Positions 1 through 24,612 of a stretch of DNA of 64,000 nt are shown in pieces (position 1 is the first letter of the stretch; each line of letters opens with the position of its first letter). The position numbers and the translations under genes are program-made. The stretch comes from Agreia bicolorata. Lineage in GTDB: Bacteria; Actinomycetota; Actinomycetes; Actinomycetales; Microbacteriaceae. The notes under the pieces were generated by a model. It saw only the letters and a program-made list of their open reading frames with translations, was not told the DNA's origin and made no database searches. Where the stretch lies: positions 496,001-560,000 of the forward strand of contig NZ_JYFC01000001.1 of NCBI RefSeq assembly GCF_000938265.1. The letters are read 5' to 3'.

Positions 1-445
1 TGAAGAGCCAATCATCAGCGCGAGCTGATTGCCAGGCGGGAAAAGATTGGCGGGACAGCTGCCACCCATCGAGATAGTCACTTTGCCGGATTGTCAAGGT
101 TGGGGTCGCCTGCTCCGAAGTCCAGGCAATGGAAGAATTGGGCTCACCAACGGCCGCGAATAAACCAAATGGAGTAGCACGAGTCTTCGCTCGAGTTGCA
201 TACGCAAGGAGAGTCGCCAGCACAATCGAACGACGTTGAGGGTTCTCGACTGATCCCTTAAAGGCCTCAGCAAGATCCGACGATGCGTGCTTAATTGCCT
301 TGAAGAGCCGATTTCCATCTAGAGAGTAGTCGTCAGATTCTCCCCCAATCAGAAACTGAATAATTTGATCGACGTCATCGTCAACTTGGCTTCTGGTAAA
401 ACTGCTAACTCTGACAAGATATGCGCCGTTGACCAACTCTGACAC
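1..445 (-). CDS. lanB: Lantibiotic dehydratase (LanB), N-terminal part, runs off left edge
   Basis: Reading the minus strand from a GTG at 443-445, 148 codons stay open to the window edge. Residues 82-97 read YATRAKTRATPFGLFA, the hallmark of the N-terminal domain of class I lanthipeptide dehydratases (Lant_dehydr_N), which glutamylate Ser/Thr of a precursor peptide and eliminate to Dha/Dhb. A GAAGGGA Shine-Dalgarno lies just upstream of the GTG. The gene follows precursor gene 1 by 85 nt on the same strand, which fits a substrate/enzyme operon. Base composition is visibly less GC-rich than the core genes. Only about a sixth of the usual ~900-residue protein is here, so the rest, and any LanC, transporter or protease, would lie outside the window. 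The family call is secure; which LanB subtype is not. Confidence 0.9.
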   Translation of the reverse strand, partial: MSELVNGAYLVRVSSFTRSQVDDDVDQIIQFLIGGESDDYSLDGNRLFKAIKHASSDLAEAFKGSVENPQRRSIVLATLLAYATRAKTRATPFGLFAAVGEPNSSIAWTSEQATPTLTIRQSDYLDGWQLSRQSFPAWQSARADDWLF

Positions 446-490
446 TGTTCCCTTCGTAGAACCTCTTCTATCCACCACAGAGGCTCATCC

Positions 491-513
491 CCCGCCAGAG
501 TGGGCGAGGCGGG
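491..513 (-). terminator. Hairpin between precursor gene 1 and lanB
   Basis: CCCGCC (491-496) pairs with GGCGGG (508-513) around an 11-nt loop, 18 nt downstream of the precursor stop. There is no U-tract. The stem is kept in copy 2 although the loop has changed. In lanthipeptide operons such hairpins commonly act as partial terminators or mRNA stabilisers so that far more precursor than enzyme is made; that role is inferred here. Confidence 0.55.
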
Positions 514-530
514 CTCCCTGGCACCAACCC

Positions 531-749
531 TCAGAGGCAGGTCGTGCACATAGCGACACCAAATGCCGTGTTTCCGCAGGCCGATGGCACATCGGTCGAC
601 TTAGGGCAAGCCATGGTGGTGCCAAACGGTTCGCTGCACATCATTGGTGTCGATGTGTCCCATTCGATTTCGCTGAATGCAAGCCCGAGGTCGAAGTCAT
701 CACTGGCTTCAAAGTCGTATGCGCCGCGCGTCAAATCCTGGACTGTCAT
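531..749 (-). CDS. Class I lanthipeptide (RiPP) precursor peptide, copy 1
   Basis: A 72-residue peptide starting MTVQDLTRGAYDF. Residues 1-35 form an acidic leader without cysteine. FDLGL at 19-23 resembles the FNLD/FxLD box that LanB recognises in class I leaders, including the actinobacterial FxLD family. The C-terminal half holds five Cys (38, 48, 58, 68, 71) among many Ser/Thr and ends GVAMCTTCL, a typical core for thioether rings. ATG at 747-749 is preceded by GAAGGG with 6-nt spacing. A dehydratase gene follows on the same strand. The leader/core boundary, the number of rings and the bioactivity cannot be read from sequence. No close match to a characterised lantibiotic core is apparent to me. 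Confidence 0.85.
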   Translation of the reverse strand: MTVQDLTRGAYDFEASDDFDLGLAFSEIEWDTSTPMMCSEPFGTTMACPKSTDVPSACGNTAFGVAMCTTCL

Positions 750-771
750 GAGTCACCCTTCTGATCAATCG

Positions 772-790
772 ATACCCCCGTTTGGGGTAT
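772..790 (-). promoter_or_regulatory. 7-bp inverted repeat at precursor 1 transcription start
   Basis: ATACCCC (772-778) and GGGGTAT (784-790) flank a 5-nt loop. The element lies just downstream of the predicted -10, around the expected +1, and is preserved exactly in copy 2 (1655-1673). It could be an operator for a cluster regulator or a 5' mRNA hairpin; the sequence does not decide between them. Confidence 0.5.
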
Positions 791-796
791 GTCAAG

Positions 797-826
797 ATAC
801 TAAATCCGGCGTGGACCGCGAGTCAA
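797..826 (-). promoter_or_regulatory. Promoter of precursor gene 1
   Basis: On the minus strand a TTGACT -35 (821-826) is followed after 18 nt by TAGTAT (797-802, four of six consensus bases). The same elements occur upstream of precursor gene 2. The predicted start is near position 790, giving a leader of about 40 nt. Confidence 0.55.
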
Positions 827-852
827 CAGCCGACATTCAGCGCTCGGACGCT

Positions 853-1207
853 TGTGAGCATGACCCCAAGAATCGCTGGGCAGTCGAGAATGCGATGCCA
901 CTCCACCCTACGGCCAACCCGATACCGACAGCGTGAACGCCCAGTTCATCCGGATCCACGACTAGGTCGAAGCCAATCTCCTGGCTGCTCATGATTGCCT
1001 TGATGCCGCCCGTGTTGACATCCTCGCATTCAACATCTTCCCGGAGAGACTTTGGCAAGAGATCTCAGGGGTGCCATCAGCAGTCGACCGCGGCGCCGAC
1101 CAGCCGAGCTATCTCCCACTGCGACTTCTCACCCGTCGAAAACGACAGGCGACTGCTAGGCCGATCATCCAGTTTGGTCACCTTTTAGAATGGTCGGCGA
1201 CCCTGTT
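853..1207. other. No clear gene; degenerate, partly repeated sequence
   Basis: This gap between the two cassettes has no convincing gene. A minus-strand frame at 837-1058 (TTG start, 73 codons) contains DELGVH...GIGLAVGW. Its stretch at about 860-950 is roughly two-thirds identical to 1230-1320, in the same reading frame as the short ORF at 1208-1333. That suggests decayed copies of one former gene. The 1059-1207 part shows nothing I recognise. Confidence 0.4.
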
Positions 1208-1333
1208 TCAGTGACTGCCAGTGGCCGCGACACCGAAGAGTCTCCAGCCTGCAGTCAAGCGATGCTCCACTCTGTCTTCGACCAACCCGGCACCACCATC
1301 GTGAAAGCCCAGTTCAACCGACTCTTTGTACAT
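1208..1333 (-). CDS. Short ORF (41 aa) at the place of lanB in cassette 2; possible gene remnant
   Basis: ATG at 1331-1333 has a strong GGAGG five bases upstream. That start region is homologous to the lanB start region in copy 1, but downstream of the ATG the sequence is unrelated to lanB. The 41 codons begin MYKESVELGFHDGG and then hit TGA. Residues VELGFH...GAGL align with DELGVH...GIGL in the degenerate frame at 837-1058. It may be a small translated product of the cassette, but a truncated remnant riding on a duplicated ribosome binding site is equally possible. I do not recognise a function. Confidence 0.35.
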   Translation of the reverse strand: MYKESVELGFHDGGAGLVEDRVEHRLTAGWRLFGVAATGSH

Positions 1334-1376
1334 TGTTGCCTCCATAGAACTCTTCTATTCATCACAGAGGCCCCTC

Positions 1377-1399
1377 CCCGCCAGAGCGGGCGAGGCGGG
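1377..1399 (-). terminator. Hairpin downstream of precursor gene 2
   Basis: CCCGCC (1377-1382) pairs with GGCGGG (1394-1399). It is the counterpart of the hairpin at 491-513, lies 18 nt past the precursor stop, and has no U-tract. Confidence 0.5.
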
Positions 1400-1416
1400 C
1401 TCCCTGGCACCAACCC

Positions 1417-1632
1417 TCAGAGGCAGGTCGTGCACATAGCGACACCAAATGCAGTGTTTCCGCAGGACGATGGCACCCTCGATCTACAGCAACCAGAGGT
1501 GGTACCAAACGGTTCGCTGCACATCATTGGTGTCGATGTGTCCCATTCGATTTCGCTGAATGCAAGCCCGAGGTCGAAGTCATCGCTGGCTTCAAAGTCG
1601 TATGCGCCGCGCGTCAATTCTTGGACTGTCAT
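1417..1632 (-). CDS. Class I lanthipeptide (RiPP) precursor peptide, copy 2
   Basis: A 71-residue paralogue of the precursor at 531-749. Residues 1-45 are identical except E for D at position 5, so the leader with FDLGL and the core start PMMCSEPFGTT are shared. Residues 46-56 differ strongly: SGCCRSRVPSS against MACPKSTDVPSA. The C-terminus CGNTAFGVAMCTTCL is again identical. This copy has six Cys (38, 48, 49, 57, 67, 70) and so may form a different ring pattern. ATG at 1630-1632 has GAAGGG upstream. A single LanB could modify both peptides because the leaders match. Whether they act as a two-peptide pair or as variants is unknown. Confidence 0.83.
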   Translation of the reverse strand: MTVQELTRGAYDFEASDDFDLGLAFSEIEWDTSTPMMCSEPFGTTSGCCRSRVPSSCGNTAFGVAMCTTCL

Positions 1633-1654
1633 GAGTCACCCTTCTGATCAATCG

Positions 1655-1673
1655 ATACCCCCGTTTGGGGTAT
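1655..1673 (-). promoter_or_regulatory. 7-bp inverted repeat at precursor 2 transcription start
   Basis: ATACCCC (1655-1661) and GGGGTAT (1667-1673) around CGTTT, identical to the element at 772-790 and in the same position relative to promoter and start codon. Candidate operator or leader hairpin. Confidence 0.5.
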
Positions 1674-1679
1674 GTCAAG

Positions 1680-1709
1680 ATACTAAATCCGGCGTGGACC
1701 GCGAGTCAA
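1680..1709 (-). promoter_or_regulatory. Promoter of precursor gene 2
   Basis: TTGACT (1704-1709), 18-nt spacer, TAGTAT (1680-1685) on the minus strand, the same as for copy 1. Confidence 0.55.
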
Positions 1710-1888
1710 CAGCCGACATTCTGCGCTCGGACGCTCTGACCGAAGCGTCCTACCCTGATGTGCAGCCGCTGCAAACCATGAGCAACGTGCTGCTGTCCCC
1801 CGATCGCCGGCGCCGAGGGGGCAGGCTTGCACCTTGAGCCGAGGCGCATAGTGACGGCTACCGGAACAGCGGCCTCGACCTTGTCGGC

Positions 1889-2074: not shown

Positions 2075-3841
2075 TTATTTTGCGTCAGAATCCGGACGCT
2101 TACTCTGCCTGAGTTCTCTTCGAAGTTTTTGCTCAGCGGGGTCGGGCACCGGGATGGCCGCTATAAGTCGTTGCGTGTAAGGATTCTGTGGGGTGCGCAA
2201 AATATTATCTCGGGTGCCGGTTTCAACTATGTGGCCGTGGTTCATGACGGCGATTCGATCGGCCATCTGATCAACGACCGCTAGGTCATGGCTGATGAAG
2301 AGACACGCGAATCGCAACTCTCGCTGCAGGCCCGCAAGTAAGTCGAGCACTGTGGCTTGCACGGAAACATCGAGCGCAGACGTGGGTTCGTCAGCAACCA
2401 GGAGCTGCGGACTGAGTGCGAGCGCGCGAGCGATTCCTACTCTTTGCTTTTGGCCGCCCGAGAGTTCGTGGGGGAATCGGTTGCGGTAGCTGCGTGGAAG
2501 GCGCACGCTGTCGAGCAATTCTTCGACCCTGCGGGCGAGATCCGCGCCCTCGGCAACCTTTGCAAGCAGAAGTGGCTCGCCGATGCTCTCACCGATGGGC
2601 AGACGTGGATTCAGCGACGATGACGGGTCTTGGAAGACGATGCCCACCTTGTTGCGGAGCTGTCGCACGACCGATCGCGAATGATGAGAGATGTCGACAC
2701 CCGCGACCTCCAGGCGACCGCCGGCGATCGGCTGCAGACCGATCGCGGCGCGGCCGATGGTCGATTTGCCCGAGCCCGACTCGCCGACCAGGCCGAGAAC
2801 CTCGCCCGCGGCGATCGAGAGGCTCACTTCGTCTACAGCCCGGAAAGCGCCAACCTTGCCGCGTGCGCCGTATTCGACGATCACGTTCGAGAGTTCGAGG
2901 ATGGGAGCCGAGGCGGCGACGGCGACGGCGTGCTCGGATGCGTCGCGCGGCGTGGTCTCGATAGCGTCGCTGACCTCGGTCAGCGTCTCGAGAACGTCAA
3001 CCGCCTCGTCGCCTTCGCTGCCGCGGCCGAGGTGGGGAACGGCGTCGAGGAGCGCCTGGGTGTAGGGATCTTGCGGCGAGGCGAAGATCTCGGCGACGGG
3101 TCCCTGCTCCACCACAACACCGGCCTGCATCACAACGACCCAATCCGCGAGATCGGCGACGACACCCATATCGTGGGTGATGAGCAGCACCGCACTTTTC
3201 AGCCGATCCTTCAGGTCTCGCAGCAGCTCGAGTATCTCGGCCTGCACGGTCACGTCGAGTGCCGTGGTCGGCTCATCGGCGACGAGCAGAACCGGGTCCA
3301 GCACCAGAGCCTGCGCGATCATCGCGCGCTGCCTCTGGCCGCCCGAGAGCTGGTGAGGGTACGAATCGAAGGCCTTCTCGGGGTCGGGCATCTCGACGAG
3401 CTGCAGCATCTCGAGAGCCCGCAGCCGAGCATCCGACGGCGTCATCGAACGGTGGATGCGGATCGCCTCGACGATCTGGAAGCCGACCGTGTAGACGGGG
3501 TTGAGTGCCGTCATCGGCTCCTGGAAGATCGCGGCGACCTCCTGGCCGCGAAGGGCACGCAGTTCCTGGGGGTTGAGTCCTACGACGGAGCGGCCGGCGA
3601 CCTGGATGTCGCCCGTCACGCGGGCGTTCTTGGGCAGGAGGTCGAGAATCGCCATCGACGAGACGCTCTTGCCGCTTCCGGATTCTCCGACTACGGCCAC
3701 GACCTCGCCGGGTCCGATCGTGTACGACACCTTGCGGGCCGCCGGCACCCAGACGCCGTCGACGCCGAAGTCGACAGACAGCTCGTCGATTTTCAGCACC
3801 GGCGTGGTGTCTGCAGGGTAGGTGTGAAGTGTTGCACTCAC
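2075..3841 (-). CDS. Oligopeptide/dipeptide ABC transporter, fused two-domain ATP-binding protein (DppD-DppF type)
   Basis: 588 residues with two complete ABC domains in one chain. The first has Walker A GESGSGKS at 52-59 and the LSGGQ signature at 165-169; the second has Walker A at 353-360 and LSGGQ near 460. Each has a C-terminal oligopeptide-type tail (PYTQALL, PYTQRLI). The fusion replaces separate DppD and DppF subunits and would power the permeases encoded at 4542-7176. A PH-domain gene of opposite strand lies between, so the ATPase probably has its own promoter. GTG start at 3841 with AAAGGA about 10 nt upstream. The family is certain; substrate specificity (peptides versus nickel or glutathione) is inferred from the family only. 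Confidence 0.93.
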   Translation of the reverse strand: MSATLHTYPADTTPVLKIDELSVDFGVDGVWVPAARKVSYTIGPGEVVAVVGESGSGKSVSSMAILDLLPKNARVTGDIQVAGRSVVGLNPQELRALRGQEVAAIFQEPMTALNPVYTVGFQIVEAIRIHRSMTPSDARLRALEMLQLVEMPDPEKAFDSYPHQLSGGQRQRAMIAQALVLDPVLLVADEPTTALDVTVQAEILELLRDLKDRLKSAVLLITHDMGVVADLADWVVVMQAGVVVEQGPVAEIFASPQDPYTQALLDAVPHLGRGSEGDEAVDVLETLTEVSDAIETTPRDASEHAVAVAASAPILELSNVIVEYGARGKVGAFRAVDEVSLSIAAGEVLGLVGESGSGKSTIGRAAIGLQPIAGGRLEVAGVDISHHSRSVVRQLRNKVGIVFQDPSSSLNPRLPIGESIGEPLLLAKVAEGADLARRVEELLDSVRLPRSYRNRFPHELSGGQKQRVGIARALALSPQLLVADEPTSALDVSVQATVLDLLAGLQRELRFACLFISHDLAVVDQMADRIAVMNHGHIVETGTRDNILRTPQNPYTQRLIAAIPVPDPAEQKLRRELRQSKRPDSDAK

Positions 3842-3903
3842 GCGAGATGGTTCCTTTCAGCGCGGATGATCGGGCTCGGGCGTCGGACTGCGAGAATTGA
3901 GCC

Positions 3904-4533
3904 GTGCCCCCCGTAGAAGAAGAGACCGTCGTGTTCCGTTCGCGATTCAACAGAATTCTCGCGGCGGTGTTCTGGGTGGTCTGTGCCGCGGCTCTCGTCG
4001 CGATCGGTCTGACATACGCATACCGGCCCACCGGCTCCGTCGCCGGTCTCGCGGTGGGTTCGGTCCTTATCGGGGTTGCCGTCTTGGTGGTGCTTTGGCG
4101 CCCCCAGCTCACGGTTTCTGACGACGCGATCGTCGTGCGCAATGTGCTGAGCACCATCGTTGTTCCGTGGAATGCGCTGATCCATGTCGACACGAAGTAC
4201 GCGCTCACACTCATCACTCCGCAGCGCAAGGTCGCGGTTTGGTGCGCGCCGGCGCCCGGTGCCACCGCCGCCCTGCGAGCGTCTCGCGCGCAGGGAACGC
4301 AGGCCCGCGCCTGGACGGCCGCCTCCGATCTGCGCCCAGGAGACCTCGCGGGGACCGAATCGGGTCGCGCCGCATTCCTCGTTCGCTCGCGCTGGAACAC
4401 GCTGCGCGAACAGGGGCGCATCGAGCTGGGCACCGCCGGCGACCAACGGGTTCAGGTGCAGCCGCACGTCGCTTCGATTGCAGGCCTCGTTGCCGGTGTC
4501 GTCGCCGTTGCGCTGGTGACGATCCTGCTCTAG
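3904..4533 (+). CDS. PH domain-containing membrane protein
   Basis: 209 residues from a GTG. Two hydrophobic segments at about 15-35 and 45-65 are followed by a soluble PQLTVSDDAIVVRN-type region with the beta-rich pattern of bacterial PH (bPH_6-like) domains. A last hydrophobic stretch sits at the C-terminus. Similar actinobacterial proteins have no settled function. It is divergent from the ATPase gene (2075-3841), and its 3' end meets the 3' end of the dppC-type gene 8 bp away, so it interrupts the transporter cluster. A role with that transporter is not indicated by sequence. Confidence 0.65.
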   Translation: MPPVEEETVVFRSRFNRILAAVFWVVCAAALVAIGLTYAYRPTGSVAGLAVGSVLIGVAVLVVLWRPQLTVSDDAIVVRNVLSTIVVPWNALIHVDTKYALTLITPQRKVAVWCAPAPGATAALRASRAQGTQARAWTAASDLRPGDLAGTESGRAAFLVRSRWNTLREQGRIELGTAGDQRVQVQPHVASIAGLVAGVVAVALVTILL

Positions 4534-4541
4534 CGAGCTGA

Positions 4542-5582
4542 TCACGAGGTGGGCGACTTCGGGGCCTTGAGCGAGACCTGCGGCTGAGCGGCCTCGACGA
4601 ACTCGCGCATCTTGCGCCGCTTGAAGCGCTTCTGCCGGGGGTCGAACGCATCACGCAGGCCGTCACCCACAAAGTTGACCAGCAGAGCCAGCGAGACGAT
4701 GAACAGCGCCGGCCACCAGTACAGCCACGGGCGAGTCGAGAACGCCGACTGGTTGTCGCTGATCAGCAGGCCGAGCGACGACTCGGGGCTCCGGATGCCG
4801 TAGCCCAGGTAGCTGAGGCCCGTCTCGAGCAGAATGGCGCTGGCCGCGAGAAGGGTCGCGCTCACGATCACGACACCGACGGCGTTGGGCAGGATGTGCT
4901 TGAAGATGATTCGGAGATCGCTCGCCCCCGCGACGCGGGCCGCCTCGACGAATTCCCGCTCACGAAGGGACAGGAACTCAGCGCGCACCAGCCTAGCGAT
5001 CGACATCCACGACACGAGCGCGAGCAGTATCGAGAGGAACCAGACCCCGAGGCCACCGCTTCCCGCCGTCTGGCCGACAACCGCGCCGATGACGATGGCG
5101 GGGATCACGATGAATACATCGGTGATGCGCATGAGCACCGCATCGACCCAGCCACGGTAGTAGCCCGCGATCGCGCCCACCACCGTGCCGACGACGGTGC
5201 CGAGCCCGCCGATCACGACCATAACGATGAGCGAGTTCTGGATGCCCCGCATAACGAGCGCGAAATAGTCAACGCCGATTCGGTTCTGGCCGAAGGGGTG
5301 TTCGCCGAGAGCAAAGGGCCACAACGACAGCGTCGGTGCGCCTGCCTGATCGTTGAGAGAGCGATAGTCGTACTTCCACCAGCCCGGAATAGGTCCGATT
5401 CCGGTGGCCGAGAATGCGAACAGCACGATCAGTACCAGCACGAAGAGCGAGACCACTGAAATACGGTTCTGCAAGAAGCGGTCGAAGATGATGCGGCCCT
5501 GGGACTTGCCGGCCACCGCATCGGAACGATCGCCTGTCGGGCCGTGCGGCTCCGGTGTGACTTCGAGCATGCCCTGGCTCAT
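4542..5582 (-). CDS. Oligopeptide/dipeptide ABC transporter permease (DppC type)
   Basis: 346 residues. An N-terminal cytoplasmic tail and a first membrane helix near residue 45-65 precede the BPD_transp_1 core with the EAARVAGASDLRIIFKHILP segment, the EAA loop that contacts the ATPase. The C-terminus GDGLRDAFDPRQ is the usual DppC ending. I chose the ATG at 5580-5582, with AGGA seven bases upstream, over the start at 5606. It lies 52 nt after the dppB-type gene on the same strand and forms the second half of the channel. Confidence 0.93.
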   Translation of the reverse strand: MSQGMLEVTPEPHGPTGDRSDAVAGKSQGRIIFDRFLQNRISVVSLFVLVLIVLFAFSATGIGPIPGWWKYDYRSLNDQAGAPTLSLWPFALGEHPFGQNRIGVDYFALVMRGIQNSLIVMVVIGGLGTVVGTVVGAIAGYYRGWVDAVLMRITDVFIVIPAIVIGAVVGQTAGSGGLGVWFLSILLALVSWMSIARLVRAEFLSLREREFVEAARVAGASDLRIIFKHILPNAVGVVIVSATLLAASAILLETGLSYLGYGIRSPESSLGLLISDNQSAFSTRPWLYWWPALFIVSLALLVNFVGDGLRDAFDPRQKRFKRRKMREFVEAAQPQVSLKAPKSPTS

Positions 5583-5634
5583 GATGATTTCCTGTTCTGC
5601 TTCCACGCCCTGATGTGTCTGGTAGCCAAGCCGC

Positions 5635-7176
5635 TCACCGTACCCTCACCCGGGGATCCAGCGCCGCGTATGCGAGGTCGGCGAGGAAGTTGAATGCGAT
5701 GGCCACGATGGCGATCACGATGAAGTAGCCCATGATCGGGTTGAGGTCTGTGCGCCCCAACGCCGTTGCGAAAAGATTGCCCATTCCACTGATGGCAAAG
5801 ACTTTTTCGGTGATGACCGCGCCTCCCAGCAGAGCGCCGACATCCGTCGCCACGATCGTGGCGATGGGAATCAGCATGTTGCGGAACGCGTGCCGCATGA
5901 TCACGGTGCGCTCCGGAAGGCCTTTGGCGCGAGCGGTGCGGATGTAGTCCTGGTTGAGAACCTCGAGCAGGCCGGCACGAGCGTAACGCGTGTACTGCGC
6001 GAAGGAGATGAGCAGCAGGGCGATCGTGGGCAGCAGCAGGTGAGTGAATGAATCGATGCCCGTCACCCACACGTCGCCCGTGAGTCCGGGAGTGCCGGAG
6101 CCCACGGTCGCGATCGGTCGACCGTTGATGCGCCCGCTCTCGACATAGCTCGGCCAGGCCTGCATAAAGCGGTCGAGAAATACCAAGAGCATGCTCACGA
6201 TGCCGGTGATGGCACCCGCTCGAACAGCCTGGCCGCGATCGCTGCCGCCGACAAGGAAGCCCACGACGATTCCGACGACGAGCGCGGCAACCGCGATGAA
6301 GATCAGGGTGAACGCCGACGAGATGGTGAAGAGCCCCTGCAGCACGAAGAACGCGATGTAGACGAAGGCAGCGGTGATCGCCGAAGCAAGTAGCGCGCGA
6401 CGATTCGCCAGGCCTGATACGAGCGAGGTCGTGATGAACACAACACCCGCCAGAACCACCAGCAGCCCGACCGGTCCGAGTCCCGGGAAGAGGAACCAGC
6501 TGGTGAGCGAGACGTAGACGAGCACAGCCCCGGTGGCCACAGCGGAGACACCGAACACGATGAGCCGACGGCGCCGGCTTCCGCCGATGAGAACCATCCA
6601 GATGAGCCCTGCCACCAGCGCGATCACAACGATCAACCACGCGGGTATGGCGGCACCATCCTGTAGAAAGTCGTTGAATCCGATCGCAATGAACTCCTTG
6701 AGGAGCACCGCGATGAGGAAGGACGGCAGCGAGAAGAGGAAGAAGCTGAGGAATGTGGTGGCGATGTCGAAGCCGCTGTACTGGCGCAGGGCGGTGACGA
6801 TACCGATGACGACCCCGAGGATGATCGCGACGACCGTGGCGACGGTCACGAGCTGCAGCGTCGACACCATTGCCGTCGGCAGGATCGTGGCGACCGGAGC
6901 GTTGTCGAGGGTCAGCCCGAGATCGCAGGAGTTCGCGAAGGGAACGAGACACTTGGCGGCGCCCCCGAGCCACAGAAACCATCGGAGGGGCGCGGGAACG
7001 TCGAGATCGAGCGCGGAGACCCGGGCTGCAATCAGCTGCGCCTCGTTGGCGGCGTTACCACCGCGCAGGTCTCTGAGCGGGTCACCCGATCCAGCCGCGA
7101 GAACGTACATGATGAACGACGCGGCGATCAAGATCAGTATCGAGACGCCGATGCGTCTCGCGATGTATGCGGCCAT
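5635..7176 (-). CDS. Oligopeptide/dipeptide ABC transporter permease (DppB type), long form
   Basis: 513 residues against about 310-340 for ordinary DppB. Residues 1-170 match the family N-terminus (MAAYIARRIGVSILIL, first helix, then PLRWFLWL). The C-terminal 140 hold the EAA-like loop (RTARAKGLPERTVIMRHAFRNM) and end AALDPRVRV. Between them about 180 extra residues carry roughly five or six added membrane helices. The start ATG at 7174-7176 fits the family N-terminus better than the in-frame codon 36 nt upstream, although its Shine-Dalgarno is weak. It lies between the binding protein gene and dppC. The extension is not a frameshift artefact, because the frame is open throughout. Confidence 0.92.
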   Translation of the reverse strand: MAAYIARRIGVSILILIAASFIMYVLAAGSGDPLRDLRGGNAANEAQLIAARVSALDLDVPAPLRWFLWLGGAAKCLVPFANSCDLGLTLDNAPVATILPTAMVSTLQLVTVATVVAIILGVVIGIVTALRQYSGFDIATTFLSFFLFSLPSFLIAVLLKEFIAIGFNDFLQDGAAIPAWLIVVIALVAGLIWMVLIGGSRRRRLIVFGVSAVATGAVLVYVSLTSWFLFPGLGPVGLLVVLAGVVFITTSLVSGLANRRALLASAITAAFVYIAFFVLQGLFTISSAFTLIFIAVAALVVGIVVGFLVGGSDRGQAVRAGAITGIVSMLLVFLDRFMQAWPSYVESGRINGRPIATVGSGTPGLTGDVWVTGIDSFTHLLLPTIALLLISFAQYTRYARAGLLEVLNQDYIRTARAKGLPERTVIMRHAFRNMLIPIATIVATDVGALLGGAVITEKVFAISGMGNLFATALGRTDLNPIMGYFIVIAIVAIAFNFLADLAYAALDPRVRVR

Positions 7177-7280
7177 GAACCGGAATTCTCGTAATGTGCC
7201 TGGGCAGGGCACCTTCTAGCCGCGCCGCACAATCGGCGGAGCGGTGGGGGTCGACGAACATAGTCGCACGCCAGGCCTGT

Positions 7281-7314
7281 GAATGGGGAGCGAACGCAGG
7301 TTCGCTCCCCATTC
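7281..7314. terminator. Perfect 15-bp hairpin between binding protein and permease genes
   Basis: GAATGGGGAGCGAAC (7281-7295) and its exact complement (7300-7314) enclose a GCAG loop. It lies 22 nt after the binding-protein stop and about 105 nt before the dppB-type start. There is no T-run. In peptide transporter operons a hairpin here usually trims or stabilises the message so that binding protein exceeds permease. Confidence 0.75.
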
Positions 7315-7335
7315 AGCCTGCGTGCAGGACCTGGG

Positions 7336-9123
7336 CTAGCCCTTCAGGGTCCAGTCCTGGGCGTTCCAGACGATTCCTGTCTGGTTGCCGAAGAACTTGA
7401 TGCCGTCGACCGTTCCGTTCGACGCGAAGAGACCCGGCGCCTGGAACAGCGGAAGACCGTAGAAGTCCTTCGCCGTCTGGGCGTCGATGTCGATCTTCAG
7501 CTTGCTGAGCGCATCGGCGTCGAGCTCCGTCTGAGCCTGGTTGACCATCTCATCGACAGAAGCGTTCGAGTACTTGCTGTAGTTTCCACCACCGGCAGTC
7601 TTGAAGATCTGGGCAAGAGCGGCGTTTCCGGCTCCGGGCGAGATCCAGCCGAAGACGCTCGCGTCGTAGTCTCCGCCGGGCAGCAGCGACGCCCAGTCGG
7701 GCGAACCGGCGTCAACGATGTTGAATCCGGCCTGCGCGGCCGAAGCCTGAATCGCCTGGAAGGAGTCGACGCGGTTCGGGTTGTCGGTGTTGTACAGGAT
7801 GCGCACGGTCGGGGTTGCTCCGGCAAGAAGCGCCTTCGCACCCTCGATGTCGGGCTTGTCGAACGAGTCGTATCCACTCGCGGCGACCGCGTCGCTGTAC
7901 TCCGGGTTGGCGGGAACGAAGATCTGCGAGTTCAGAACCTTCGCATCGGGGTTGACCGGGGTCACGATGGAATCGAGGATCTGCTGACGCGGAATCGTCT
8001 TGAGGAAGGCCTCACGCACCTTCGGGTCCTGGAACACGGGCGAGCCGAAGTTCAGGTCGAGGTGGTCGTACGAGAGCTGGTTGCCCTCGAAGGTCTCGAG
8101 GTTGGCGTTCTTCAGAGCGGTGAGGGTGTCGGCTGATGCCTGCGGGTAGATCGCGTTGACCTCGCCGTTCTGCAGGGCGGTCACCTGAGCGTTCGAGTCA
8201 CCGATGAAGCGAAGTACGAGTTCGTCGTAAGCAGGCTCGTCGGAACCCTTGTATTCGGGGTTCTTACTGAAGGTGATCGACTGCTGCGGCGTGTAGGCCG
8301 AGACGATGAACGGTCCGCTCGAGACCAGCAGCGACTTGTCGTCGGGGAACGATGTGAAGTCGTAGCCGGTGTTCCAGAAGTCGGCTGCAGCCTTCAGGGT
8401 GGCGTTCGGTGCGACGGGGTTCGCCGGGTCACCCTTCGGCGTGTCCTTGAGCGTCTTGATGAAGTCTTCTTCGCTGACGCCGGCCTTGTCTGCCAGAACG
8501 TGGGCCGGCTTGTCGAGCAGGTTGGCCAGCTCCCAGTCGACGAAAGGCTCCGAGTAGGTCAGCGTGAGGCTGAGGTTGTCGTCGGAGACCTCGGGGAAGG
8601 CGGTCTTGTCGAGACCGTCGGTGCTGCCGGCCAGGCTGAAGTACTGGGTACCGCCCGTAACATCGCCCGTTGCCTCGTCGATGGTCGAGTCGTTGTAGTA
8701 GCCGGAGCCGATGGCCCAGCCGACGAGCAGATCATCGGCGGTGATGGGCTTGCCGTCAGACCACTTGAGGTCGTCCTTCAACGTGTACTTGACTGTCAGC
8801 GGGTCATCGGAGACTTTCTCATAGGTGCCGATGTTGTCGTTGTGCTTGACCTGGAACTTGTCGTCAAGAGTGAAGAACCCGCCGAGGCTGGCACCGGCAG
8901 AGGTTCCTGCGGTGCCCGTCAAGTACACGATCATGCCGTTGGTGTCGAGGTTGCCCTGCGGTGTGCTCGAGTTGAACGAGGTCGCCTCGTTCGTAGTGGC
9001 CACCGTGATGGTGCCCTTATTGCCCTTGCTCTGATCCGGAGCCGACGTTGTGCAACCGGACAGCATAAGAGCGCTGGCCGCGGCAAGGGCGATTGCCCCA
9101 ATGCCAATGCGTCTGATTTTCAA
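7336..9123 (-). CDS. Peptide ABC transporter substrate-binding lipoprotein (SBP_bac_5)
   Basis: 595 residues. A lipoprotein signal MKIRRIGIGA...LSGC has Cys24 as the lipidated residue, so the protein is anchored outside the membrane. The body matches family 5 solute-binding proteins: KYTLKDDLKWSDGKPITADD and the later LDLNFGSPVFQDPKVREAF are typical. The start is TTG at 9121-9123, directed by a strong AGGAGG four bases upstream; no ATG is available. It is first in the minus-strand transporter cluster. Likely ligands are oligopeptides; the fold alone does not prove this. Confidence 0.93.
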   Translation of the reverse strand: MKIRRIGIGAIALAAASALMLSGCTTSAPDQSKGNKGTITVATTNEATSFNSSTPQGNLDTNGMIVYLTGTAGTSAGASLGGFFTLDDKFQVKHNDNIGTYEKVSDDPLTVKYTLKDDLKWSDGKPITADDLLVGWAIGSGYYNDSTIDEATGDVTGGTQYFSLAGSTDGLDKTAFPEVSDDNLSLTLTYSEPFVDWELANLLDKPAHVLADKAGVSEEDFIKTLKDTPKGDPANPVAPNATLKAAADFWNTGYDFTSFPDDKSLLVSSGPFIVSAYTPQQSITFSKNPEYKGSDEPAYDELVLRFIGDSNAQVTALQNGEVNAIYPQASADTLTALKNANLETFEGNQLSYDHLDLNFGSPVFQDPKVREAFLKTIPRQQILDSIVTPVNPDAKVLNSQIFVPANPEYSDAVAASGYDSFDKPDIEGAKALLAGATPTVRILYNTDNPNRVDSFQAIQASAAQAGFNIVDAGSPDWASLLPGGDYDASVFGWISPGAGNAALAQIFKTAGGGNYSKYSNASVDEMVNQAQTELDADALSKLKIDIDAQTAKDFYGLPLFQAPGLFASNGTVDGIKFFGNQTGIVWNAQDWTLKG

Positions 9124-9278: not shown

Positions 9279-10142
9279 GTGAAATCGGCATTCCTTGTGC
9301 CGAACGCACAATATTCCCTCTATGTGCGCCCGCCGACGCAAGAAAGAACACCTGTGCCTGTATCCACCCCACCCCCGTGGCGCATCACGCGGCGACGACG
9401 GCTGACGTGGGAGATCGCAATCGTTCTCGGGCTGTCGCTCGGGGCATCCGCCGTCTACTCAATCGTGAGCCTCGCCGCCAAACTCACGGACGACACCCCT
9501 CTCGCGAGCCAGTCGACAGCGCTGAACTCTGCGCAGAGCCCGCGCGAGTGGCTCGATTTCACGTACCAATCGCTGGCCATCTTCTTTGACCTCATCCCCG
9601 TCGCCCTCGTCTTCTACCTGCTGGCTATCTCCGGGCCGAACCCCTTCCGGCGGATCGGCTTCGACCTGCGCTCCCCCGCTCGGGACTCCGCTCGCGGGCT
9701 TCTGCTGGTACTGGTGATCGGTGTGCCGGGAATCGCGCTCTACTTCATCGGTCGGGCCGCCGGCATCACCGTCAACGTCGTTCCCGCGCCGATCGACGCG
9801 TACTGGTGGACTGTCCCCGTGCTGATCGCATCTGCCCTCAGAGCCGCCCTCACCGAGGAATTGATCGTCGTGGGCTACCTCTTCACCCGGCTCAAACAGC
9901 TCGGGTGGCAGAAATGGCAGATCATCCTGAGCGCCGCCGTGCTCCGTGGCAGCTATCACCTCTACCAGGGCATCGGGCCGTTCTTCGGCAACGTGGTCAT
10001 GGGAATCGTCTTCGGCTGGTGTTACCTCCGCTGGGGCCGCACGATGCCTCTCGTCATCGCCCACTGGATCATCGACATCGCCTCGTTCGTCGGCTATGCG
10101 TGGGCCGTGGTGACGTTCCCCGAACTCTTCAGGCTGAGTTAG
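9279..10142 (+). CDS. CPBP family intramembrane metalloprotease
   Basis: 287 residues with about seven hydrophobic segments after a basic stretch (RITRRRRLT, near residues 36-44). LTEELIVVGYLFTRL carries the paired Glu of the EExxx(R) motif of CAAX/bacteriocin-processing (Abi, CPBP) proteases, where the Arg is shifted to TRL. A later GSYHLYQGIG and the HWIIDIASF segment supply the expected His residues. Such proteins cleave or protect membrane substrates; the target here is unknown. The GTG at 9279 has only a weak Shine-Dalgarno, so a start near 9354 is possible. The 3' end overlaps the convergent pentapeptide-repeat gene by 4 nt. Confidence 0.85.
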   Translation: MKSAFLVPNAQYSLYVRPPTQERTPVPVSTPPPWRITRRRRLTWEIAIVLGLSLGASAVYSIVSLAAKLTDDTPLASQSTALNSAQSPREWLDFTYQSLAIFFDLIPVALVFYLLAISGPNPFRRIGFDLRSPARDSARGLLLVLVIGVPGIALYFIGRAAGITVNVVPAPIDAYWWTVPVLIASALRAALTEELIVVGYLFTRLKQLGWQKWQIILSAAVLRGSYHLYQGIGPFFGNVVMGIVFGWCYLRWGRTMPLVIAHWIIDIASFVGYAWAVVTFPELFRLS

Positions 10143-16212: not shown

Positions 16213-16947
16213 CTACTCCTCCTTCGACGGTCCCTCGGGCTTCTCGAACGGATCACGACGGATGCGCCGCACGGTGAGCGCGATCACCGTCGCGATCAAT
16301 GCCAGACCGCCGATCGACACCGCGATGGCAACGCCGATCCGGCCACCATCGGCACCGCCGTCGCCCGTGGACGCCGGATCGGCGGTCGCTGTGAGGGTCG
16401 GCGCCGGCTCCTCGGCCATCGTGGTCATCGAGGGCTCGGGCGTCACGGCGGGAGCGGAGTCCTCCCGTGGCGAGCCCGCCCACTGCGCGCCGCAAGCGGG
16501 GGCAGCCGCCATGCCGGGCAGCGAATTCCCGGTGTCGACGGGCTGATAGTCGAAGGTGTAACTGCCTGACGTCGGATGTCCGTCGCTCGAGACCACCTGC
16601 CAGGTCACGGTGTAGGTTCCGGGGTCTCCCAGGGCGACACCAGTGGAGACGACGACGCCGTCGACGACGACGACGCATCCGTTCTCGTGGAACGCACCCG
16701 ACGCATCCGTCACCTGAATCGCGAACGCGCTCGTGTCGCCGCCCAGGGTGATGAGCTCGTCGCTGTACGTCAGCGAGACCACGGTCGGATCGGTCGTGAT
16801 GACCTCGCCGACAGCGGGGGTCGACGACTCGAGCGCGTCATGCGCCGAGGCACTGGATGCGCCGGCAAACAGGAGTGCCGCACCGAGCAAGGCGGTCGCG
16901 GCGAGCGCAGAGGGCAGGGCGAAGAGGTGTCGAGTCACGCGCCTCAC
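16213..16947 (-). CDS. CopC-domain copper-binding protein, secreted and membrane-anchored
   Basis: 244 residues. The signal peptide is cut after ASSASA, leaving an N-terminal His (HDALESSTPAVGE), the usual first copper ligand of CopC. The Ig-like CopC domain spans about 36-140, ending SSDGHPTSGSYTFDY, which holds a second His. A Thr/Pro-rich linker and one C-terminal helix anchor it. No CopD lies next to it. Copper binding is inferred from the domain; the family includes proteins of unproven function. Confidence 0.85.
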   Translation of the reverse strand: MRRVTRHLFALPSALAATALLGAALLFAGASSASAHDALESSTPAVGEVITTDPTVVSLTYSDELITLGGDTSAFAIQVTDASGAFHENGCVVVVDGVVVSTGVALGDPGTYTVTWQVVSSDGHPTSGSYTFDYQPVDTGNSLPGMAAAPACGAQWAGSPREDSAPAVTPEPSMTTMAEEPAPTLTATADPASTGDGGADGGRIGVAIAVSIGGLALIATVIALTVRRIRRDPFEKPEGPSKEE

Positions 16948-23625: not shown

Positions 23626-24612
23626 TCAGGCTGTGGCGAGCCTAGCCAGTGCACGCACTCCCGCACTGAACTGGTCTAGCTTCAACCGGACGTGGCCGTT
23701 TTGAAGGGCCTGACCGCTCACACCGATCTCACTCAGTTTCAATTCCATGAGCGAATCGGGTACCAGCCGCGGTGTCGTCTTGTTCGTCCACGGCCACCGC
23801 GCAAGGGCAGCTGTATCGTTCGAAGCAGCCCATTTGACGTAGAAGTCCGGTTGATACTCGGGGTCATCGACAACTTCTACGATCGCATAACAGTCTCCCG
23901 TCGCCTTGGCACAGATGAATACGAGGTCCCCGGCTCGAAATCCGGGCTTGCCCTTCTTGGGACTTGCGAACCAGGATTGTTCTCGCCATCCATCTAGTGC
24001 AGGTTCGCCGTATTCCAGCTTCAGCCACAACGACCTCTGAGGATCCCGCGCGTCAAGAAGGAGGCGCTCTGCGAGCTGAAGTGCAGAGCTGGCGTCCAGC
24101 GTCTTGTCCTGAGTCCGCCCGATGCGTCCGACGTTCTTCGCCTCGTTCAGTAACTCCTCAAGGTCCGTACGCATGACCGTTTTTGCGGGCCACGAAACGG
24201 TAATCCGGTGCGCTTCGTCAGCTTGCTCATTTGTCAAATGAACTCCCAGTTCTCGGTTCGCGCTGGTGGAAAAACCAAGTCCGGAACCCGTGAGATTTGC
24301 AGACCCCACCATTGCTTTCGAACCCACGATGAAGCACTTGGCGTGCAACCGTTCGGTGTGACGAATCTCAACCCCTGCATCGAGCAAAAGGTGAAGTCCC
24401 TGCACGGAGAGATATCCGTTGGCTACTGCGCTCGGATTCAAAGTAGTGGAGAGCACGAACGAGTGCGTCGATCTATCGGCAGCATCGGAAAGTTGACGGC
24501 ACACTTCATACGAGAGAAAAGGGCTCGTGACAAGAACTGGCCCGTCCGGCGCCGAAAGCGCCTCACTTATCCATGCGTGAGCGTGCTCGATCAGTTGTGA
24601 GGCGTTGGTCAT
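23626..24612 (-). CDS. Phospholipase D-like nuclease fused to EVE/PUA-like domain (putative restriction or defence protein)
   Basis: 328 residues. The N-terminal half is a PLD-superfamily domain with HAK (90-92) and GSANLTGSG (103-111), the HxK...GSAN pattern of PLD-type DNA nucleases. The classical Asp of HKD is absent. After a helical linker (about 150-195), residues about 205-290 (SPKKGKPGFRAGDLVFICAK...YVKWAASN) resemble EVE/PUA-like modules that bind modified bases. PLD plus a modified-base reader fits a modification-dependent restriction factor. This is an inference; no partner gene is present. G+C is lower than in the neighbours, and a gene remnant follows at 24699-24797, suggesting horizontal acquisition. 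Confidence 0.72.
   Translation of the reverse strand: MTNASQLIEHAHAWISEALSAPDGPVLVTSPFLSYEVCRQLSDAADRSTHSFVLSTTLNPSAVANGYLSVQGLHLLLDAGVEIRHTERLHAKCFIVGSKAMVGSANLTGSGLGFSTSANRELGVHLTNEQADEAHRITVSWPAKTVMRTDLEELLNEAKNVGRIGRTQDKTLDASSALQLAERLLLDARDPQRSLWLKLEYGEPALDGWREQSWFASPKKGKPGFRAGDLVFICAKATGDCYAIVEVVDDPEYQPDFYVKWAASNDTAALARWPWTNKTTPRLVPDSLMELKLSEIGVSGQALQNGHVRLKLDQFSAGVRALARLATA

Follow-up and report, generated by a model that had tools for sequence, protein, structure and literature searches.

We analysed a window of 64,000 nucleotides of Agreia bicolorata (C1:496001-560000), whose genome measures 3.92 Mb and is split into 20 contigs. Further sequence to the left of the window, from the same contig of the host genome (L003), supplied LanC and the remainder of LanB. 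Read directly from the sequence, the gene order on the minus strand is precursor B, precursor A, lanB and lanC, followed by the housekeeping gene typA:

1632-1417, minus strand: precursor B, an open reading frame of 71 aa with leader motif FDLGL and 6 Cys in a core whose middle differs from that of A
749-531, minus strand: precursor A, an open reading frame of 72 aa with leader motif FDLGL and 5 Cys in the core
1-478, minus strand: N-terminal part of lanB, a gene that continues leftward beyond the window (967 aa as a whole, L003:15575-18478)
L003:14197-15642, left of the window: lanC, 481 aa from the first ATG, overlapping the end of lanB

The original prediction, made from the window, described two peptides with FDLGL leaders directly upstream of a LanB dehydratase on the same strand, and expected the remaining maturation genes to the left. 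The LanB N-terminus, with YATRAKTRATPFGLFA, is present and starts at position 478 of the minus strand, and both peptides lie upstream of it in the same orientation. Precursor A is indeed its direct neighbour, ending 52 nt before the LanB start, whereas precursor B, which starts 883 nt further upstream than A, is set apart by transposase debris. A broken dehydratase frame, or the lack of a cyclase or transporter within about 15 kb, was to count against the prediction; leftward, the lanB frame continues unbroken to its full 967 aa and the cyclase gene lanC adjoins it, but no exporter was recognised in the 10 frames scanned on the left or the 20 on the right, so that the last of these conditions applies by half.

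LanB reaches 255 bits against PF04738 and 93 bits against PF14028, both above the curated cut-offs, and thus carries glutamylation and elimination domains in one frame; it is the only LanB gene of the genome (two PF04738 pieces in a single frame), just as lanC is the only LanC gene. In an alignment of 8 proteins, the others being 22-24% identical to this LanB, the invariant columns include R96, R100, T102, P103 and G105 near the N-terminus and R758, R811, H933 and H935 in the C-terminal half, which, following work on NisB, would be residues of glutamylation and elimination. LanC scores 95 bits for PF05147, again above the curated cut-off, and its H262, C338, C386 and H387 do not vary in any of the 26 rows of an alignment that sets this protein beside the 25 best of the 38 LanC matches from 80 loci. 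Both the zinc ligands and the catalytic His are therefore present; in NisC, zinc is bound by Cys284, Cys330 and His331, and His212 and Asp141 act in catalysis (PMC9889658). The C-terminus of LanB also matches TIGR03891, a thiopeptide-type bacteriocin domain (87.5 bits, over the cut-off), which could point to a thiopeptide-like or other LanB-dependent pathway instead of a lanthipeptide. Glutamylation and elimination domains in one protein, an adjoining LanC with zinc-site residues and a cassette in which only LanB and LanC were recognised, with no azoline or pyridine synthase gene, make such a pathway highly improbable.

Relatives of this LanB are remote throughout. Among 398 genomes of the family there were three matches, namely the protein itself and two weak ones (23-27% identity), and among 396 genomes of the phylum there were 13 including its own, the best other being 25% identical over most of its length with short stretches up to 35%. 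Plasmids gave 57 records (21-28% identity among the 40 listed), and the genome_contigs collection gave 486 motif matches and 371 relatives, of which 80 (23-29% identity) were kept; the best full-length matches are ~25% identical. No LanB was found in phages, and three LanC pattern matches in viral contigs included no relatives. In a tree of 81 LanB proteins, sampled by one motif and with unsure placement of this one, its branch of 4.42 is by far the longest of those compared (median 0.15, next longest 1.74). No report of a class I lanthipeptide in Microbacteriaceae was found in the open-access literature searched.

The two precursors each combine an FxLx leader box with a core of Cys plus Ser/Thr, are 90% identical in alignment and lie within a DNA repeat:

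1326-1733, minus strand: duplicated unit, copy with precursor B
440-846, minus strand: duplicated unit, copy with precursor A (promoter, precursor, first codons of lanB)

The units extend from the promoter through the precursor gene to about the first 13 codons of lanB and are 95% identical across 257 nt and 97% identical across 101 nt. The two near-identical precursors arose by duplication, which, like the insertion of the cassette described below, the original prediction could not see. Outside codons 46-57, A and B differ at 5 of 183 bases, all of them third codon positions (four silent changes and one Asp to Glu), which is the pattern expected of coding sequence. Inside this 12-codon core block, substitutions affect 11 of 33 aligned bases and one copy is 3 bases shorter through an in-frame gap (Fisher p = 5e-7 for block versus rest, a value flattered by choosing the block after seeing the alignment). 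Relative to A, precursor B has gained a Cys beside C48 and a Ser at 46 and at 57 within the block and has lost Thr52 and Asp53, while the two ends of the core, CSEPFGTT and CGNTAFGVAMCTTCL, do not differ between them. Taken with the LanB and LanC scores above curated cut-offs, the confinement of changes outside the block to third positions indicates that the observation is more than chance. It is not rare for a cluster to have a second precursor: among those of class I, 62% stand alone in their cluster (PMC7268733). As a natural pair with the same core ends and a different 12-codon middle, A and B point to core positions that the enzyme pair may tolerate.

Searches of both precursors against NCBIfam, Pfam and PHROGs models returned no family (for NCBIfam at E up to 1), in agreement with the prediction of undescribed precursors; the NCBIfam library presumably includes an FxLD precursor model. 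Relatives were likewise absent from the 7 other genomes of the genus and from plasmids at E up to 1. One scan of genome_contigs gave 52 pattern matches and 0 relatives, and one of viral_contigs 11 and 0, each with two 7-residue patterns that distant relatives can escape; the family and phylum genomes were queried with LanB, not the precursor. A PDB search with a precursor profile gave one match (E 0.48), which we rejected as chance. Many of the 80 LanB loci kept have an FDLD-type precursor upstream of LanB (40 retained by a stricter filter, 35 of them distinct), and a profile of these 35 aligned its FDL motif with that of precursor A. The score was 5.5 bits, not among the top rows listed, and shuffled controls reached 6.2 bits, so there is no evidence of common descent with FDLD precursors beyond the motif. 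The locus thereby adds a precursor family with no relative in the searches made. With an intact LanB frame, an adjoining cyclase and no family match, the locus is borne out as a class I locus with two precursors of no described family.

NisB/NisC-type pairs are the closest known systems by architecture, having a LanB with PF04738 and PF14028, the LanC zinc residues, an F-x-L leader motif and precursors upstream. The nearest solved structure to LanB is 5EHK, itself a LanB (E 4e-25), followed by 9G04 (E 8.8e-8), and LanC, with an E value of 2.9e-14, matches the class I LanC proteins 8BYK (MadC) and 2G02 (NisC). The present sequences are nonetheless distant from such pairs, the cassette lacks an exporter, protease and immunity gene, and the core resembles none of the described families searched. 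Class I loci of Streptomyces and other actinobacteria with FDLD (FxLD) leaders likewise have a precursor bearing an F-D-L motif immediately upstream of LanB, but their cores are completely different and the LanB described here is only about 25% identical and sits on a very long branch. The actinobacterial class I families I 1-4 carry PF01135, an O-methyltransferase, and a conserved core Asp (PMC7268733); they resemble this locus in class and phylum, whereas the cassette has no PF01135 gene and the sole core Asp of A has no counterpart in B. As a class I lanthipeptide locus, the system belongs to a kind already known; its new features are the family of its precursors, a LanB distant from the relatives found, twin cores that diverge in one block, and an unexplained promoter repeat.

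The cassette of ~6.2 kb, flanked by an opp operon on one side and typA on the other, is richer in AT than its neighbourhood, with a GC content of 0.565 in lanC, 0.545 in lanB and 0.54-0.58 in the precursors and spacer, versus 0.644 for the 90 kb around it. Homology with six congeners ends roughly 0.2 kb upstream of typA, at C1:491871-491878; G007, the eighth genome of the genus, has its typA split over two contigs and was left out of this comparison. The cassette occurs in one of the 8 genomes of the genus, and LanB closely in one of 398 in the family. In the six congeners a different opp operon, with an ATPase 43-44% identical, comes after typA, and that operon is adjoined by the flank found here to the right of opp. 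A replacement of the whole block from typA to the right flank was considered and rejected, because the opp type of this genome was found in the same stretch as typA at all six loci of other genera, taken from the top half of OppB matches in 299 family genomes. It is directly beside typA in three of these (L213, L216 and L217; gaps of about 0.24, 0.29 and 0.70 kb between aligned ends) and separated from it by a further oppA-like gene in the other three, the distance from oppDF to typA in this genome being 6.4 kb. Only the ~6.2 kb cassette need therefore be foreign, and the simplest reading is that it was inserted between the opp operon and typA as what appears to be an acquired island. A comparison of the opp operon at 2075-9123 with L176-L181 shows one type here and in other genera and another in the six congeners, apparently an operon exchange at one place, and further right a PLD-like protein gene (23626-24612) has a third-position GC of 0.62 versus about 0.8 for most neighbours and is perhaps another acquired gene. 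Mobile element debris lies within the cassette and at its edge, and a protease gene lies further right:

855-1323, no strand assigned: spacer between A and B, with IS256-like (855-1065 and 1230-1323) and IS21-like (1094-1208) transposase gene fragments
1880-2028, no strand assigned: IS21 istA-like fragment where the cassette ends on the right (matches in 4 plasmid records, istA being the annotation in 3)
9279-10142: CAAX-type protease gene next to the opp operon (PF02517, 65 bits)

The spacer matched transposase genes of IS256 in 7 records and of IS21 in one, and we therefore rejected the idea that its internal repeat (908-952 and 1276-1320) is a remnant of another small gene. The frame of the istA-like fragment had no Pfam match.

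Linked exporters and leader proteases are common in class I loci, although not universal. Neither was recognised in the cassette or in the 30 flanking frames scanned, 10 on the left over about 13 kb and 20 on the right up to position 24612, not every gene there being included; of the maturation genes expected to the left, LanC was the one that materialised. The left frames encode a hexapeptide transferase, DeoC aldolase, citrate synthase, aminotransferase, DUF6113, an open frame with acyltransferase and imelysin (M75) domains, FTR1 iron permease, DyP peroxidase, TypA and one frame without a match. Those on the right encode the Opp ATPase, two permeases and binding protein, a bacterial PH domain, the CAAX-type protease, pentapeptide repeats, glycine cleavage P and T proteins, a LysR-type HTH, CopC, DUF7715, cupin, DUF222, a two-domain ABC ATPase, an ion channel, the PLD-like protein and three frames without a match. 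The ABC transporter on the right is of the oligopeptide importer type and native to this place in the family, and the only peptidase-type genes nearby are also native; that of the CAAX-type protease is conserved at 81-91% in the six congeners, which lack the cassette. Class III clusters of S. pneumoniae are described with a CAAX protease (PMC7268733), so this native enzyme stays a possible candidate for leader removal by analogy, and lanthipeptide proteases encoded outside the cluster are a known situation (PMC8960859).

A cassette of this composition could be a relic, that is, an acquired island from which the genes for export, proteolysis and immunity have been lost, which yields no secreted product and whose enzymes have not yet decayed. 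The insertion sequence fragments in the A/B spacer and at the cassette edge, the lack of a recognised exporter nearby and the restriction to a single genome of the genus and, for a close LanB, of the family would fit such a history, which we nevertheless think rather unlikely since lanB and lanC remain unbroken over 4.3 kb with their conserved residues, both promoters and both precursor frames are kept, and the A/B changes outside the core block are at third positions only. The class I lanthipeptide locus is real and probably functional, and its best explanation as a whole, a small horizontally acquired locus of this class that works as proposed below, is very likely correct. The lack of a recognised exporter nearby and of a dedicated leader protease counts against this explanation, as do the decaying spacer, given that the locus could be a recent relic, and the precursors' lack of cross-species conservation, no relative having been found in the searches made. 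By analogy with known families, LanB would recognise the FDLGL leader and dehydrate core Ser/Thr using glutamyl-tRNA, after which LanC would add core Cys to the dehydrated residues and so close thioether rings. Secretion would follow, with export and leader removal carried out by enzymes encoded outside the cassette, or these two steps would not take place. Since the recent duplication both core ends have stayed the same in the two products, and the middle has diverged. The locus represents a minimal precursor-LanB-LanC set without recognised linked export, and its products should be two ring-containing, antibiotic-like peptides of unfamiliar sequence.

Each precursor is predicted to be transcribed from its own promoter, and the two promoter-like sites listed here are the only ones found in positions 1-2100 of the window, versus 0.9 expected in shuffles:

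1680-1709, minus strand: promoter-like site of B, TTGACT-N18-TAGTAT (consensus match)
797-826, minus strand: promoter-like site of A, TTGACT-N18-TAGTAT (consensus match)
1655-1673, no strand assigned: inverted repeat ATACCCC-N5-GGGGTAT downstream of the B promoter (pattern match)
772-790, no strand assigned: inverted repeat ATACCCC-N5-GGGGTAT downstream of the A promoter (pattern match)

The inverted repeat is perfect (ATACCCC-AAACG-GGGGTAT) and begins 6 nt past the predicted -10 hexamer, close to where the transcript probably starts. It could therefore form a stem-loop at the 5' end of the mRNA that stabilises the transcripts or tunes their translation, and its 7-bp stem and minimum free energy of -12.7 kcal/mol for 47 nt are consistent with this. 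Against these stand a z-score of only -1.22, with 25 of 200 shuffles folding as well, and the lack of an Rfam family at the repeat, the one sub-threshold match lying elsewhere; we regard a stem-loop as a tentative possibility, somewhat short of an even chance.

The pattern ATACCC-N4-9-GGGTAT occurs at three sites in the genome, the two precursor promoters and one on contig C12, and at none in a reversed control. The third site is found some 27 nt ahead of the likely start of a gene for a His-rich P-type (copper-type) ATPase and contains TACCCCCTAGGGGTA, a 15-nt core. One CsoR-family gene is present in the genome (L110:4715-4993, also on contig C12), and its protein has, by eye, Cys, His and His at the sensor positions, where copper CsoR proteins presumably have Cys, His and Cys. 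The gene is preceded by its own TAC-X9-GTA site, as it is in five of six close congeners (L141-L147), and such a site was also found before the orthologue of the ATPase in 7 of the 7 genomes of the genus where that was found (L111-L117). The ATPase gene itself is at L108:5542-7683, with a predicted CsoR-type operator conserved in six congeners. In S. lividans, the copZA operators to which CsoR binds contain the same TACCCCCTAGGGGTA core (PMC3902906 Table 1). These findings raise the possibility that the precursor repeat is a CsoR-type operator, in which case copper, or some other signal to which that repressor family responds, would derepress the precursors.

The half sites and G/C tracts of the precursor repeats match the S. 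lividans CsoR operators, but as TAC-X11-GTA they depart from the TAC-X9-GTA form by a spacing 2 bp wider, and they are at most putative operators. In a survey of 43 CopB- and CsoR-type loci, 12 of which showed no site, 34 sites were found, of which 33 had X9, one X8 and none X11. X9 is described as the common CsoR operator spacing, with M. tuberculosis an exception (PMC3902906), and in another member of the family one added base lowered affinity about tenfold (PMC10318464). The location of the repeat downstream of the predicted -10 also argues against an operator, which on balance is improbable. Copper control of the precursors is thus only a lead, its odds lowered by the spacing survey, and the 5' stem-loop is at least as likely. 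We consider it correspondingly doubtful that a CsoR-family repressor switches the lanthipeptide via a widened copper-type operator, with Cys-rich peptides that answer copper or another signal. Under such a switch, thioether peptides with a fast-changing core loop might perhaps bind metal, or perhaps be copper-triggered weapons. No case of lanthipeptide production under copper or CsoR control was found in the open-access literature searched, and binding of the repeat by a CsoR-family repressor would tie such production to metal sensing. A CopC-domain gene (PF04234), at which the precursor-type promoter repeat is absent, lies at 16213-16947, 15 kb from the precursors.
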